NCBI GenBank assembly: GCA_013141065.1
Contig: JABFRR010000008.1
Coordinates: 563,464-627,463, forward strand
Reading direction: 5' to 3'
Origin: Bacteriovoracaceae bacterium
GTDB lineage: Bacteria; Bdellovibrionota; Bacteriovoracia; Bacteriovoracales; Bacteriovoracaceae
DNA length: 64,000 nt
This document shows, piece by piece, positions 57,864 to 64,000 of this stretch. Made by a program: the position numbers and the translations under genes. Each line of letters opens with the position of its first letter. The first letter of the stretch is position 1. The notes under the pieces were generated by a model that had not been told where the DNA came from, did not search any database, and was given only the letters and a program-made list of their open reading frames with translations.

Positions 57864-60800
57864 ATGATTAAAATGATTCTTTTATTCTCACTTTTTATCG
57901 GAGCTGCATCTGCTAAAGGCAGGTTTACACCTGAAGATAAAAAGAAATTTATGGAAGAAGTTAAATTATCAATTGCAGAACATAAGCTTGAAAATAAAGG
58001 ACGCGTTGATTTACAAATAATTAAGCCAGAACTCAATCTCTCATTAGAAGACTATTTCAAAAGAGAAAAGTTTACTCGCCAAGAAATGATCAACATTAAG
58101 CAAAATTACGAAAAGTTTTCTAGAGATAGATCAATTGCCCCTGATAAAGCGGAAGAAGAATTTTATAATTTTATTCAAGCCGAGCTCGATAATTTAAGTC
58201 AAAGACCTCTAATCAAAACCGGAAGAGGAGAGATTTGTAATACTTGGGGATGTGAAGAAGGCTTAAGATGTGCTCCAGATCCAAGTCATAGATCACAAGC
58301 AGGTAAGAAAAACCAAGGCGACGCTTGTCGAGAAGACTCTGAATGTTTATCAATGGAATGTGTTGAAGAAAGAGTCGGTTCAAAAAATAAAATTTGTGAA
58401 GATGTTTATCGTTGTTACCAACCACTACAATTAAGTGAGTCGTGTGATCAAAATCCTGTTTGTGGTGTAGGAAGTTGTCTGGCCGTTAATTTTCAAACAG
58501 CTGGAATTGGAGAGTGTGAAGCACTAGGGAAATCATGCAAAAGTAATTCTGACTGCTGTTCGGATTCTTGCATGGGCAATATTTGTAAACCTAAAAAAAT
58601 CTGTAAAGATTGTCTCGGAAACGGAGCAATGCCACAAAGAGGGCAAGTGTGTTGCGAAGGTTTATATAAAAACTTAAAAGGCGTGTGTATTCCCGCGATC
58701 CCTCCTTCTGTCATACCACAAGTAAAAGTGAGTCCTTCAAAAAATATTTATTACACCCTTATAAACATGATTTTCTCAGAAGCAATTGCAGACAGTGACA
58801 ATAGTGGATCTTCTGGTTCGGGTGAGGCAACTCCTGCGCCTGCACCGGCCCCAGCTCCAGCACCTTCTTCGGCAGCCTCAACAAAAGCCGAGATGAAAAG
58901 TGAGATTATGGGTAACAAAGATAAATATGAAAACTTTCAAGCAGAGAGAACAGAAGAAACTCAGGTTATTGATCCAAAAACTAAAAAAGCAGAAATGAAT
59001 TTTTCTAAAAAATCAAACTTTGAAACTTGTGAAATGAATTTCAAAGAAGACTTTTTTAATGAATTAAAAGTAAAAGGTAAGTTTGATCCTGAAGTGGCAA
59101 TGCTTGCGTTTGATTTTGTGAACTCCGGGGACTCTGAACCTGATTATTGGGTCGATGGTGGATCGTCAATTCATAATAGACTTAAAAATGTAGGGACTAA
59201 GAGCCGAGCAAACAGAAAATACTTATTTACTTCAATTACTGAAAATAATCGCCGAATGACTTGTGCTTGTCTGGATGTCAAAGGATACAAAAAAATTGAA
59301 GATGAAGCTAAGAAAAAATTCTTTGAAACTAGTTGTCCAGCAGAATTCGCCAAATATCAGGACCCAAATACTTCATTTGAAAGTTTAGAAGGAGATGCTT
59401 CAGGCTTAAAAGCTAAAAGAATGTTAAAGGTTTGGACTAATTCAATGGTTGGATTTTATACAACACTTTCAACATTGAATCTAAGTAATGCAAGAGATTT
59501 GGATAAAGTTTTATCATGGTCACAAGGCCCAAAGGCGAAGTGGAATGATGCTAAAATTAAAAACTATGATCTTTTTACATTTAATATTAAAAACTCTAAC
59601 GGCCCGGCTGCTGGTCTTGGAGCCTTAGTAGGAGCCCTTTTAGCAGCTGGGATTATTGCAGTATTGGGTGGTTTTGCTTCAGCCTCAATTATTTCTACTT
59701 GGGCAAGTGTTGGTATAATTTCCGCTTCAGCAGTTACAGGTGCTGGAGGTCTCTGGATGATCGCTTCTATGAAAGGGGCATGGGTATCACACCGTCCAGA
59801 AATTACAGATTATAAAGTTCAACCTAGAACTTATAGTTGTGGGAAAAAAGATTCATGTACTGAATACACAAGAACATTAGCACAACCATATAATGATGTT
59901 TGCCGAATTCATGCTTCTTCTAGTGCATGTATTAAAAACTTTGTTGTAGTAAATGAAGGAAATGAACCACGTTATATTATCGATCCATGGATTCCAGTAG
60001 GTGTTAATCGATCGGCTATTTACATGAACCAGCCTCTTTATACATCGAAAATTGAATCAGGATTCCTTGCAGCTAGAGATGAAATGAAAAGAAGAAATCC
60101 AGGAGCTAGCGGTGGTGGCGGTAAGAAAGGTGGAGGTGAGTTCGTAGGTGATGACTACCTTACAGAAGTTTTCATTGAAGCGACAATTTTAGGAAAATAT
60201 GCACCAGATTTTTCACAAGAATCAACTTACCTAATGAATACAGATAAAATTAAATTGATTAAAGATGCAGCTAAGAAATTTGCGATAGAAGAAGGATTTT
60301 TGCTTGATACTGACACTGAAAACCTAGAGTCCTTTGCAGATTATGCTTATGAGTACCATTTTTTATGGCCTAAAAAATCTCATCCAAATGAAATTAGCTA
60401 CCCAACTGTTGGTTTAATTACTTATTTAGAATATATGACGTCGTATGTAGCGGGAGGAAATAGTTCTGATCATGCGAAGAGTGCAATCGCTGCGACTAAG
60501 CTTAATTTAGCTCATACTCAAGATTATGATAACACTCTTAGAATGTATGCTGCTAACGAGGCAGCGACAAATCTTTTGAACCCAACGCAAAAAGCTGCAC
60601 TTAAAAATGAGTTAACGAGATCAGGTGAAGAGTTAAATAATGTACTCACTTTAAATGCAATGCTTAATAACAAAGGACTCGATACAGATTTATCTAAATT
60701 AGGTGCAGGATTTATTGCTGATCAATCTAAATTGGCCGGAGCCAACGCAGTTGCAAATTTCAGTGAAAGCCAAAAGAACTTACTTAAAACAGTAGGTGGT

Positions 60801-61334
60801 TTAAGAAGTATGAGAAAAGAGCAATTGAAGTCTTTAGATGCTTATAATAAAGCTGTCGCTAATGGTGATAAGGACCGAGTGAAAAAAGTAGCACTTGCTT
60901 CTAAAAAATTCAGTGATAGATTTGCAACTGCTAATGGTGCAATTGGTTCAGGCTCTCAATTAGGATCACAAGATACTAATGCTAATGACGATCTAGAAGA
61001 TAAAAATACAAATACTGGAAATTTTGGTTTGGCAGGATTTGGAAATGGATACAATAACTCCGGAAGCAATGGTTCTAGTTCGTATGGCTCGTCGATTTCA
61101 TCTTCGACTAAATCGACAAGCAGTGACCCAAGCGAAAATGATAAATTAAACTCGAATCGTAGTGACCAAAGCAGAATTGCGGAAGCCATTGAAGCAAGAA
61201 ATGCAGCAATCAATAAGTACCAGTCGAATGATAACCAAACGCTATTTGAGAAAGTAACTAATGCTTACATCAGAAACTATGACAGGATTCTGAATAAGAA
61301 AAAAGATAAGGATATCACTGATCAAAAAGAATAG
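57864..61334 (+). CDS. Giant secreted Cys-rich protein with central hydrophobic segment
   Basis: Signal peptide, Cys-rich dickkopf-like repeats, PAPAPAPAPAP linker, Ala/Gly-rich TM-like region, Ser/Gly-rich tail. Confidence 0.8.
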   Translation: MIKMILLFSLFIGAASAKGRFTPEDKKKFMEEVKLSIAEHKLENKGRVDLQIIKPELNLSLEDYFKREKFTRQEMINIKQNYEKFSRDRSIAPDKAEEEFYNFIQAELDNLSQRPLIKTGRGEICNTWGCEEGLRCAPDPSHRSQAGKKNQGDACREDSECLSMECVEERVGSKNKICEDVYRCYQPLQLSESCDQNPVCGVGSCLAVNFQTAGIGECEALGKSCKSNSDCCSDSCMGNICKPKKICKDCLGNGAMPQRGQVCCEGLYKNLKGVCIPAIPPSVIPQVKVSPSKNIYYTLINMIFSEAIADSDNSGSSGSGEATPAPAPAPAPAPSSAASTKAEMKSEIMGNKDKYENFQAERTEETQVIDPKTKKAEMNFSKKSNFETCEMNFKEDFFNELKVKGKFDPEVAMLAFDFVNSGDSEPDYWVDGGSSIHNRLKNVGTKSRANRKYLFTSITENNRRMTCACLDVKGYKKIEDEAKKKFFETSCPAEFAKYQDPNTSFESLEGDASGLKAKRMLKVWTNSMVGFYTTLSTLNLSNARDLDKVLSWSQGPKAKWNDAKIKNYDLFTFNIKNSNGPAAGLGALVGALLAAGIIAVLGGFASASIISTWASVGIISASAVTGAGGLWMIASMKGAWVSHRPEITDYKVQPRTYSCGKKDSCTEYTRTLAQPYNDVCRIHASSSACIKNFVVVNEGNEPRYIIDPWIPVGVNRSAIYMNQPLYTSKIESGFLAARDEMKRRNPGASGGGGKKGGGEFVGDDYLTEVFIEATILGKYAPDFSQESTYLMNTDKIKLIKDAAKKFAIEEGFLLDTDTENLESFADYAYEYHFLWPKKSHPNEISYPTVGLITYLEYMTSYVAGGNSSDHAKSAIAATKLNLAHTQDYDNTLRMYAANEAATNLLNPTQKAALKNELTRSGEELNNVLTLNAMLNNKGLDTDLSKLGAGFIADQSKLAGANAVANFSESQKNLLKTVGGLRSMRKEQLKSLDAYNKAVANGDKDRVKKVALASKKFSDRFATANGAIGSGSQLGSQDTNANDDLEDKNTNTGNFGLAGFGNGYNNSGSNGSSSYGSSISSSTKSTSSDPSENDKLNSNRSDQSRIAEAIEARNAAINKYQSNDNQTLFEKVTNAYIRNYDRILNKKKDKDITDQKE

Positions 61335-62436
61335 TAGTGAGGCGGGCGATAGAATTGTTAATTTAGATTTTTTAAGAGGCATTTTTGTCTTGCTCGCACT
61401 CGACCAACATTTTGCATATTACCTAAACGTTTGGTATATCGATTATTTTCGAGATGCTATTGCACTTGGAACAACCTATGCCCATCTCTTGCCACAAATT
61501 GGTAAAAATTTATCGACTGGGCCGATTGAATATTGGCTGGCATTAATATTTACCCCTTGGGTAAGTCAGATTTACCTAACGATGTCGGCGTTTAATTTGG
61601 CAAAAAAAACACAAGATGAATTTCGTCAAAAATTAATAGAAAAACTTAAAATCCTAGGTCTTATATTTCTCTTCTTTATAATGGAAAATTTCATAGTGGC
61701 CCCAAATACTGGAGAAGCTATTTCATTTTATCCAATTATGCTTTGGATGCTCATTCTTTTTATACTTTCGCTGGCCTATTCATTTGTGGGCATTAGAGGG
61801 ATCTATGTCATAAGTATCCTCGCTCTTTTAAGGTTTATTATTCCCGTTGAATTGCTCTCTGATTTTTTTGAGGAAATCATTAAAACAAGTATTCATCCAG
61901 GTTATGAATATGATGCTAGGATTGAATATTTTATTTTATCTGGATGCCTAGGATTTATTATGGGCCATGTTCATTACCATAAACCGAATTTAAAAAATAA
62001 AAAAAATATTTGCTTCATAGTTGGAGGATTTGCCTTAACTCTTGTTTATGCAGTTTGGGGTGAGCGTTTTGAGGTATTTCGAGACAATGTTTTTTTAACG
62101 GAACATGATTTGGTTCGTTCTTTTTCGGGAACGGCTTATGTTTTGGGAATTCAGGCAATTGTTATCTCAGTATTTTTATTACTCGAAAAATATAATTTTA
62201 AATTAAAAGTTCCAGTGGTGAATTGGGTTGGTAAAAATTCTTTATTAATCTTTTCAATGCATAGGATTCTGTTTGTTAAACTCATTGCTCCTGTGAGCTT
62301 ATTAATTCTCAGCCAGTTTAATTTAACAATACTACCTACATCAGTTCAGCTGTATATTTATATTTCTATTACATTAATGATTTGTTATTTTATTAAAAAT
62401 ACTCCTGTGAGCGAAATTATTCTTCAGAAGAAATAA
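61318..62436 (+). CDS. Polytopic membrane acyltransferase-like protein (start uncertain)
   Basis: RIVNLDFLRGIFVLLALDQHF N-terminus typical of acyltransferase_3/DUF1624-like families lies upstream of the 61390 TTG start in the ORF track. Confidence 0.6.
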   Translation: MIKKNSSEAGDRIVNLDFLRGIFVLLALDQHFAYYLNVWYIDYFRDAIALGTTYAHLLPQIGKNLSTGPIEYWLALIFTPWVSQIYLTMSAFNLAKKTQDEFRQKLIEKLKILGLIFLFFIMENFIVAPNTGEAISFYPIMLWMLILFILSLAYSFVGIRGIYVISILALLRFIIPVELLSDFFEEIIKTSIHPGYEYDARIEYFILSGCLGFIMGHVHYHKPNLKNKKNICFIVGGFALTLVYAVWGERFEVFRDNVFLTEHDLVRSFSGTAYVLGIQAIVISVFLLLEKYNFKLKVPVVNWVGKNSLLIFSMHRILFVKLIAPVSLLILSQFNLTILPTSVQLYIYISITLMICYFIKNTPVSEIILQKK

Positions 62437-62449
62437 ATAGGATTTGAAA

Positions 62450-63517
62450 ATGGACACGAGGTCCCAACATTTACTTTTTGATGCTGTTTGTGAACATGAC
62501 CTCACCGATCGTGATATACAATTAATAAAAGATATCATTGAAAGAGACCTGACAGTTGTTAATAAAATAGAGCACAAATTTACGCCACATGGTGAAACGA
62601 TCGTTTTTATTTTGGCGGAATCACACTTTACCTTACATACTTACCCTGAAAATAAATTTATCACCTTAGATATTTATGTTTGCAATTTAGATGTTAATCT
62701 ACAAAAAATTGTAGATGAAATTTCAAATCAAATTAGTTTCGAAAAAGTTGAGCAAAGAATACTTCCTCGAGGAAAAATTGGTACAAAAACTCGGAATGAT
62801 AATTTAATTCTTGTTTATTTTGTTACTGTATTAGTCGCTTGTTGCAGTATGCTTTATGAATTATTGCTTGCCCAGTCATTATCCACGACAATGGGAAACA
62901 CAGCACTTCGATATAATACTACAATCGGGCTATATATCGCTGCTATGGGATTTGGAGCTTTGCTTTATAAAAAAATTATTAAAAAATCGATCTTTGAAGA
63001 GTTTGTAAAAATTGAATTAGTTCTGTCTTTGGTTGGCGGTGTCGCACCTATAATGGTCTTGTTGGTAGATTATTTTTTTAATAAGATTGCCGTTGGATCG
63101 GGAGTCTCATTTTTTTCTCAATGGATTCAAGTTCCATTATTTACTATTAATCATTTTTTCATTGTGATTATTGGTTTTCTTTCAGGGCTGGAGCTGCCTC
63201 TTTTAATAGATATGGGAAAATTTTTCGATAAAAAAAGGGGAAATTATGTTTTAGCCTATGATTATCTTGGAACATTACTGGGGGCAGTGTTATTCCCCAT
63301 CTTTTTACTACCGAAGTTGCATATTTTTACGATGGGATACTTAGTCTCTGCAATGAATATTCTCGTAGCTCTAATTGTAGTGGTGAAACTAAAAATTAAT
63401 ATCAAAAAATATAATTACTTAATTGGAATTATGTTGTTCTTATGGATTTCAGTGATTATTTATTCTACCAATGTTAATCAATATATTGTTAAACAACTAT
63501 ATTTCGGAGGGCAGTAA
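62450..63517 (+). CDS. SpeD-like (AdoMet decarboxylase) domain fused to a SpeE-type polytopic membrane domain
   Basis: ESHFTLHTYPENKFITLDIYVC matches prokaryotic SpeD S63/H68/C83 spacing; remainder hydrophobic with YELLLAQSLSTTMGNTALRYNTTIGLYIAAMGFGAL. Confidence 0.8.
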   Translation: MDTRSQHLLFDAVCEHDLTDRDIQLIKDIIERDLTVVNKIEHKFTPHGETIVFILAESHFTLHTYPENKFITLDIYVCNLDVNLQKIVDEISNQISFEKVEQRILPRGKIGTKTRNDNLILVYFVTVLVACCSMLYELLLAQSLSTTMGNTALRYNTTIGLYIAAMGFGALLYKKIIKKSIFEEFVKIELVLSLVGGVAPIMVLLVDYFFNKIAVGSGVSFFSQWIQVPLFTINHFFIVIIGFLSGLELPLLIDMGKFFDKKRGNYVLAYDYLGTLLGAVLFPIFLLPKLHIFTMGYLVSAMNILVALIVVVKLKINIKKYNYLIGIMLFLWISVIIYSTNVNQYIVKQLYFGGQ

Positions 63518-64000
63518 TGCACTCACAATTTTATAATTCAAAAGGCTTTAAAAAAGCTGAAGTTTTGGTTGTTACCAGCTTGTTGGCATTTTGTAGCATT
63601 ATTTATGAATTGCTCTTATCAAACACGTTATCGATTGTTACTGGTAACTATATTTGGTGGCAGTCATTAACGATAGGTGTTTATATTGGTGGTCTAGGTC
63701 TCGGTGCCTACTTTTCTGATAAACTAAAAAATAGCTATGAAAGTATTGTTAGAACTGAAATTGGTTTATCATTTCTAGGTGCCCTTAGTGTCGTCTTTAT
63801 CTATATAGTCCATGGAGGCTATAAATATATTGATTCCCTGTTTTTTTATACAGGAGAGTTTCATTCTGCAATTTACCTGCAGAATTTATTTATCCTTAAG
63901 TTAATTTTCTTTATTATTGTTCAGCTCTTTACTTTGGCAATTGGCTTACTTTCTGGTTTTGAAATACCACTCATGGTAAGAATTGCGGAGGAGCACTTAG
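63517..64000 (+). CDS. Second SpeE-type membrane protein (spermidine synthase-like N-terminal TM region), truncated by window end
   Basis: TAATG overlap with preceding gene; YELLLSNTLSIVTGNYIWWQSLTIGVYIGGLGLGAYFSDKL, SGFEIPLMVRIAEEHL. Confidence 0.75.
   Translation, partial: MHSQFYNSKGFKKAEVLVVTSLLAFCSIIYELLLSNTLSIVTGNYIWWQSLTIGVYIGGLGLGAYFSDKLKNSYESIVRTEIGLSFLGALSVVFIYIVHGGYKYIDSLFFYTGEFHSAIYLQNLFILKLIFFIIVQLFTLAIGLLSGFEIPLMVRIAEEHL

Follow-up and report, generated by a model that had tools for sequence, protein, structure and literature searches.

Polyamine enzymes are generally regarded as soluble cytoplasmic proteins with diamine substrates. The closest known systems to the locus described here are the long bacterial SpeE proteins of the PRK03612/NF002956 type from speD-linked operons, including the PSP/DUF350/DUF4178 operons (PMC11237479), and the AdoMetDC-aminopropyltransferase fusions of Pelagibacter (PMC11107197). 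The PRK03612-type proteins carry the same 7TM module and synthase fold, a separate speD is often found nearby, and the charge bias and low cysteine content reported below apply to them as well. However, they have a single module that keeps the DxPDP motif and no adjacent second TM subunit, whereas in the paired clade of our system another 7TM subunit is added and position 176 (human spermidine synthase numbering) is aromatic. In the Pelagibacter fusions a class 1b SpeD is likewise tied to an aminopropyltransferase, but SpeD sits directly on the synthase, no membrane module has been reported, and spermidine/spermine are made (PMC11107197); in our system SpeD is carried by a membrane module and the synthase by a partner protein. 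The SpeD-SpeDC fusions of neofunctionalised SpeD also place a SpeD homologue in a new architecture, but they have two SpeD domains and no membrane module (PMC10407285). Human spermine synthase shares with our system a SpeD-like N-terminal domain and a changed residue 176, but is soluble, whereas our complex is predicted to be membrane-bound and has the Ser/His/Cys residues intact. The SpeD-like part of the human enzyme is catalytically dead. In the literature searched we found no description of the SpeD-7TM/TM-SpeE architecture or of membrane SpeE topology, nor a catalogued function for the architecture.

The SpeD-7TM fusion and its operon

The window, which is the whole stretch of 64,000 nucleotides that was analysed, comes from a contig of 646 kb in a Bdellovibrionota genome. 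Its last four genes, all on the forward strand, form an operon whose order (large Cys-rich secreted protein, LRG-type membrane protein, SpeD-TM, TM-SpeE) is found at related loci where the flanks allow, with gaps of -74 to +78 nt and the last two junctions mostly at -4 to +12. Gene 1 (57864..61334) encodes a secreted protein of 1156 aa with 30 Cys and a signal-peptide-like N-terminus, a candidate acceptor or cargo; at the other SpeD-fused loci with enough flank, its homologues (~1161-1378 aa) lie directly upstream of the LRG gene and the pair. In one genome (G032) the LRG gene is absent from the operon position and the gene 1 homologue is directly upstream of the fusion. Gene 2 (61312..62436) encodes a polytopic membrane protein of the LRG type with an RIxNLDxLRG N-terminus. 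It is weakly Acyl_transf_3-like, since Pfam PF01757 matches two of nine members of its family at a best E of 0.0053; no PDB relative was found, and the searches placed it in no family. The frame of gene 2 is open from 61294, the start Met of its relatives aligns at 61312, which is an Ile codon here, and the first standard start is TTG at 61390. Within 61294-61390 there is thus either an unusual start at the Ile codon or use of the downstream TTG.

Gene 3 (62450..63517) encodes the fusion of 355 aa, starting at the ATG at 62450 with TTG at 62444 as a possible alternative. A SpeD-like N-terminal domain with the S/H/C spacing of Thermotoga-type AdoMetDC, continuing into a SpeE-type membrane domain that ends before the synthase, had been noticed from the letters alone, and profile searches and alignments bore this out. 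The class 1b SpeD domain (residues 1-110, 62450..62779) matched Pfam AdoMet_dc (PF02675) at 68.7 bits against a cut-off of 25, and TIGR03330 at 68.5 bits, which is below its cut-off of 75.65. Ser58 (codon 62621..62623), the predicted pyruvoyl/self-cleavage site, His63 (62636-62638) and Cys78 (62681-62683) have the spacing of S63/H68/C83 of T. maritima, with which they align, and all three are invariant across 11 diverse fusions, as are P46, P66 and E67. The membrane part matched residues 15-239 of the 522-residue NCBIfam PRK03612 model (E 1.5e-39), the match ending before the synthase part of the model. AlphaFold2 gave a model with a mean pLDDT of 84, in which an alpha/beta SpeD domain is followed by seven long helices; the best Foldseek matches were the AdoMetDCs of A. 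aeolicus and T. maritima, and human spermine synthase (3c6k) was also matched. For the 7TM module (residues 117-337, 62798..63460) sequence searches found no solved relative, and the fold search only a weak match to the nucleoside transporter ENT1 (6ob6, E 0.021, TM 0.34).

Considering that SpeD homologues acting on arginine or ornithine are common in bacteria (PMC10407285), and that the TIGR03330 score falls just under its cut-off, the SpeD domain might instead be a SpeDA/SpeDC-type decarboxylase making agmatine or putrescine for the synthase, a possibility that the sequence-only reading had raised. We regard this as very unlikely. Both P46 and P66 are invariant, while one Pro is reported as not conserved in SpeDA, and SpeDC/SpeDA genes occur in genomes without other decarboxylases and are paired with soluble enzymes (PMC10407285). 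With the two central-region prolines conserved, the domain looks like a true AdoMetDC.

Distribution of the paired 7TM modules

The pair of SpeD-7TM and TM-SpeE was found in at least 17 Bacteriovoracaceae-type genomes of several genera, which belong to predatory-type relatives of Bacteriovorax. Nine of the 14 genomes of the same genus, the source genome included, contain the fusion with its neighbour; the adjacent pair occurs at 65-70% identity in eight other genomes of that genus and also in further genera of the family. In a tree of the synthase domains from which the motif columns were left out, the 17 SpeD-fused partners formed one clade (94/89). The co-conservation on which the earlier interpretation depended is thus present, and the same recurrence bears on the suspicion of a frameshift or mis-assembly that fused speD to a truncated speE. 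The unusual architecture alone would speak for such an artefact, but the same intact fusion and adjacent pair recur in relatives (17 genomes of several genera), so that this explanation was rejected and its probability is practically negligible. One genome of the same genus (G010) has the membrane pair without a SpeD domain. In a GTDB-wide pattern scan of limited sensitivity, the fusion was found only in Bdellovibrionota, the named relatives being Bacteriovorax sp. and Bacteriovoracaceae MAGs. A plasmid search returned only SpeE-type and plain SpeD matches, none of them spanning most of the fusion.

The SpeD-7TM/TM-SpeE system is a sub-case of a wider family of 7TM pairs, which we surveyed in 369 Bdellovibrionota genomes. 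The 7TM modules occur in five forms: (a) a lone 7TM-SpeE of the classical kind; (b) a TM-only protein, ~185-260 aa long, adjoining a TM-SpeE; (c) a single gene for both 7TM modules and the synthase; (d) a TM-only subunit with SpeD fused to it, which is the arrangement of the window; and (e) a TM-only gene neighboured by a SpeD gene that is separate and divergent. Most paired systems have no SpeD attached. In the clade of the window, and almost throughout the wider paired clade, the gene of the TM-only subunit adjoins that of the TM-SpeE. Because the two modules are neighbouring genes in dozens of genomes and are joined as single-gene double modules in five, they very probably form one unit, and to this extent the heteromeric complex proposed earlier is strengthened.

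The stand-alone SpeDs of form (e) have His68 replaced by Ser (ESHFIISTWPE; L039:129-1258, L040:7490-8615, L041:8030-9132, L094-L098) and are likely not self-processing. They sit divergently next to the TM-only protein, some of them without a synthase gene nearby.

Active site of the synthase partner and supply of its donor

Gene 4 begins at the ATG at 63517, overlapping the stop of gene 3 (63515-63517) in TAATG as had been read. It occupies 63517..64000 of the window, with the first 161 of its 575 aa, and continues past the right edge to 65244 (L003:6981-8708). Extension past 64000 showed an intact frame in which the 7TM module is repeated, as expected from its first part, and is followed by a Spermine_synth domain (E 1.4e-29), the domain that the earlier reading had proposed to look for there. 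In the AlphaFold2 model of TM-SpeE confidence is low over the C-terminal third, with a pLDDT of 30-50 in places. Downstream, a GNAT acetyltransferase (L003:8708-9757) lies on the opposite strand, convergent with the pair; it is present in four checked genomes of the genus and at the SpeD-less locus of G010.

The active site was mapped by aligning 72 membrane SpeEs on human spermidine synthase, in a numbering that agrees with the residues named in PMC12812037. In the human enzyme D173 is the base that deprotonates the acceptor amine; the distal end of putrescine is held by D176 (D170 in K. lactis), an Asp located three positions later (PMC12812037, PMC10146546). The equivalents of Q49, Q70, Y79, D104, D126 and D173 were kept in all 72 membrane SpeEs, and that of D155 in 71. 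The equivalent of D176 was Asp in 13 of 14 single-module SpeEs (a contig end truncates the remaining one). All 17 SpeD-fused partners have Tyr there, and 31 of the 41 other paired or double SpeEs have Tyr or Phe. In gene 4 the motif reads DFPYP, with Asp423 (the base) kept and Tyr426 in the place of the putrescine-anchoring Asp. The equivalents of human E208 and Q206 were also changed in all 17 SpeD-fused partners. The change at residue 176 is largely confined to one clade, and the many genomes therefore do not represent independent events; the anchor Asp is mostly lost too in those pairings that the tree places with the single-module proteins (G292, G295, G296; G213, G032c). Because the donor residues and the base are kept while the putrescine anchor is aromatic, these patterns point to an aminopropyltransferase that is active and has something other than a free diamine as its acceptor. 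A pseudoenzyme, in which the change of D to Y in DFPDP would be a loss of the base, was considered and rejected, as the first Asp, which serves as the base, is kept and the changed Asp anchors putrescine. Against the NF002956 (PRK03612) equivalog cut-off of 472, TM-SpeE scored 270.0 and SpeD-TM 135.8, and TM-SpeE scored 108.6 bits against the TIGR00417 equivalog cut-off of 249.55. The system would work like an aminopropyltransferase, but it falls short of both the 7TM-SpeE and the spermidine synthase scores and has lost the anchor.

Two other explanations bear on these residues. The pair could be a membrane-bound but ordinary polyamine synthase or synthase-exporter, in which SpeD feeds SpeE to make spermidine or a longer polyamine, perhaps coupled to export. 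The intact donor site and base agree with this, single-module 7TM-SpeEs keeping DxPDP lie near speD in Proteobacterial DUF350/DUF4178 clusters, and human spermine synthase has Ala at position 176 (NDLTAVP). Position 176 can therefore vary with the acceptor, and the anchor Asp is dispensable for some polyamine acceptors. Nevertheless, the source genome already has a soluble SpeD and SpeE, the aromatic anchor position and the changed E208/Q206 equivalents are common to all 17 SpeD-fused partners, and the topology predicted below puts the synthase outward, so that we consider an ordinary synthase somewhat unlikely. Alternatively, the synthase domain could be a non-catalytic sensor or scaffold binding dcAdoMet or MTA, with the 7TM pair as a transporter of polyamine, dcAdoMet or another nucleoside. 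The lost putrescine anchor, the weak likeness of the 7TM part to ENT1 and a weak match of the NCBI MFS_SpdSyn model to one TM module would fit, but the conservation of the Asp173 equivalent and Tyr79 in all 72 proteins is unexpected for a pure sensor, and this role is unlikely.

Besides the fused system, the source genome has a separate class 1a SpeD and a soluble SpeE. We detected an AdoMetDC in 47 of the 48 genomes that carry paired systems vs 65 of 114 in an even sample of the phylum, these counts ignoring kinship. The 12 of 48 paired genomes without PF02675 raised the possibility that they have no dcAdoMet supply, which was rejected: 36 have PF02675, and a class 2 AdoMetDC (PF01536) is present in 11 of the remaining 12, in most cases on a contig that also bears a soluble speE. 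In six genomes (G102, G105, G107, G018, G032, G144) the class 2 enzyme occurs alongside the fused SpeD, which therefore comes in addition to it. The remaining genome (G296, 93% complete) has the pair and no detectable AdoMetDC. This genome, and the fact that most paired systems are without their own SpeD, would suit a donor that is AdoMet or another nucleoside, with the synthase domain methylating or carboxyaminopropylating its acceptor and SpeD having a separate role. Such a donor is improbable, as the aminopropyl-binding Asp of GGGDG (human D104) is kept in 72 of 72 and several lineages have SpeD either fused or adjacent.

The housekeeping AdoMetDC differs between members of one family: it is class 1a in some and the eukaryote-type class 2 (PF01536) in others, and its gene usually shares a contig with the soluble speE. 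This class swap separates G102, G018, G032, G057, G221 and others from G000, G003 and G009.

Predicted membrane topology and mechanism

Family-averaged hydropathy gave seven TM segments in all three module classes. Since the number is odd, SpeD (before TM1) and the synthase (after TM7) should lie on opposite sides of the membrane. Lys and Arg were more frequent on the N-side (N-terminus, loops 2-3, 4-5 and 6-7) in 131 of 132 modules, with one tie (13/13, 53/54 and 65/65 by class), and because of this bias SpeD is placed inside; the module of the fusion is thus predicted to be N-in/C-out. Cysteine was absent from the synthase part of all 17 SpeD-fused and of 30 of 35 paired proteins, and the paired synthase domains that do have Cys usually have two. 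Single-module SpeEs have 0-2 Cys there vs 2-6 in 29 soluble SpeEs of the same phylum, and the TM parts average 2-4. From these features, of which the charge bias and the Cys content are indirect indicators, we predict that SpeD is inside and the synthase outside. Moreover, in all five one-gene doubles examined, hydropathy was read as giving the first module six TM segments and the second seven; because TM7 of the first module is dropped, both modules would share one orientation. Antiparallel (dual-topology) packing was rejected on the grounds of this loss and of the same charge bias in both modules. The sequence features suggest that the synthase domain faces outward in the classical PRK03612 family too, which would affect many annotations beyond Bdellovibrionota.

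Single-module 7TM-SpeEs elsewhere (L149:4902-6452 of Novosphingobium, L151, L154) have the same Lys/Arg bias and low Cys.

Tentatively, and with less than even confidence, we propose that the pair is a two-subunit inner-membrane aminopropyltransferase with SpeD inside, a periplasmic synthase and a non-diamine acceptor. On the cytoplasmic side, the SpeD domain, whose catalytic residues are observed, would cleave itself at Ser58 and decarboxylate AdoMet to dcAdoMet. The 7TM modules of both subunits would pair side by side in the same orientation, as the gene pairing and the single-gene versions with 6+7 TM suggest, and dcAdoMet would pass through the paired modules to the outer face. There the synthase domain, predicted to be periplasmic, would move the aminopropyl group to an acceptor that is no free diamine and is most likely secreted or part of the envelope, the large secreted protein of the operon being the first candidate. 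Of the coupling proposed in the sequence-only reading, the tie between AdoMet decarboxylation and an aminopropyltransferase-type domain stood, but the predicted site of transfer lies outside the cytoplasm instead of being just embedded in the membrane, and the acceptor is probably not putrescine.

The mechanism would need export of a charged nucleoside, and we know of no precedent for extracytoplasmic use of dcAdoMet. The full version, a transmembrane aminopropylation machine in which dcAdoMet is passed by a heteromeric half-transporter pair to an outside enzyme that modifies a secreted protein, lipid or envelope acceptor, is possible but doubtful; if true, it would be, to our knowledge, the first dcAdoMet-dependent modification outside the cytoplasm. 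If the predictions of topology and acceptor hold, a widespread class of 7TM-SpeEs is mis-annotated as spermidine synthase, the real activity being to attach aminopropyl groups covalently at the membrane's outer face, and the retention of a second SpeD/SpeE pair in these genomes would then be explained. Asp423, Tyr426 and Ser58 are testable residues, and a candidate substrate lies in the same operon.

SpeD-less paired systems often belong to a recurrent Bdellovibrionota island whose other genes encode type IV pseudopilin-like proteins, an N-anchored protein, a secreted protein of ~250 aa and an acyltransferase-3-like membrane protein (L119:6015-12427, L126:3432-11067, L116:3485-10335, L112:5575-13008). 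These islands possibly serve pseudopilin or surface modification, and together with the secreted protein of the operon they point to work on the envelope. The products of gene 1 (61230-61334) and of a gene close to the canonical speD/speE locus (L004:12071-12200, minus strand; 779 aa) have a similar C-terminus, LFE(K/R)VT(N/K)AYIRNY, which is perhaps a sorting signal.
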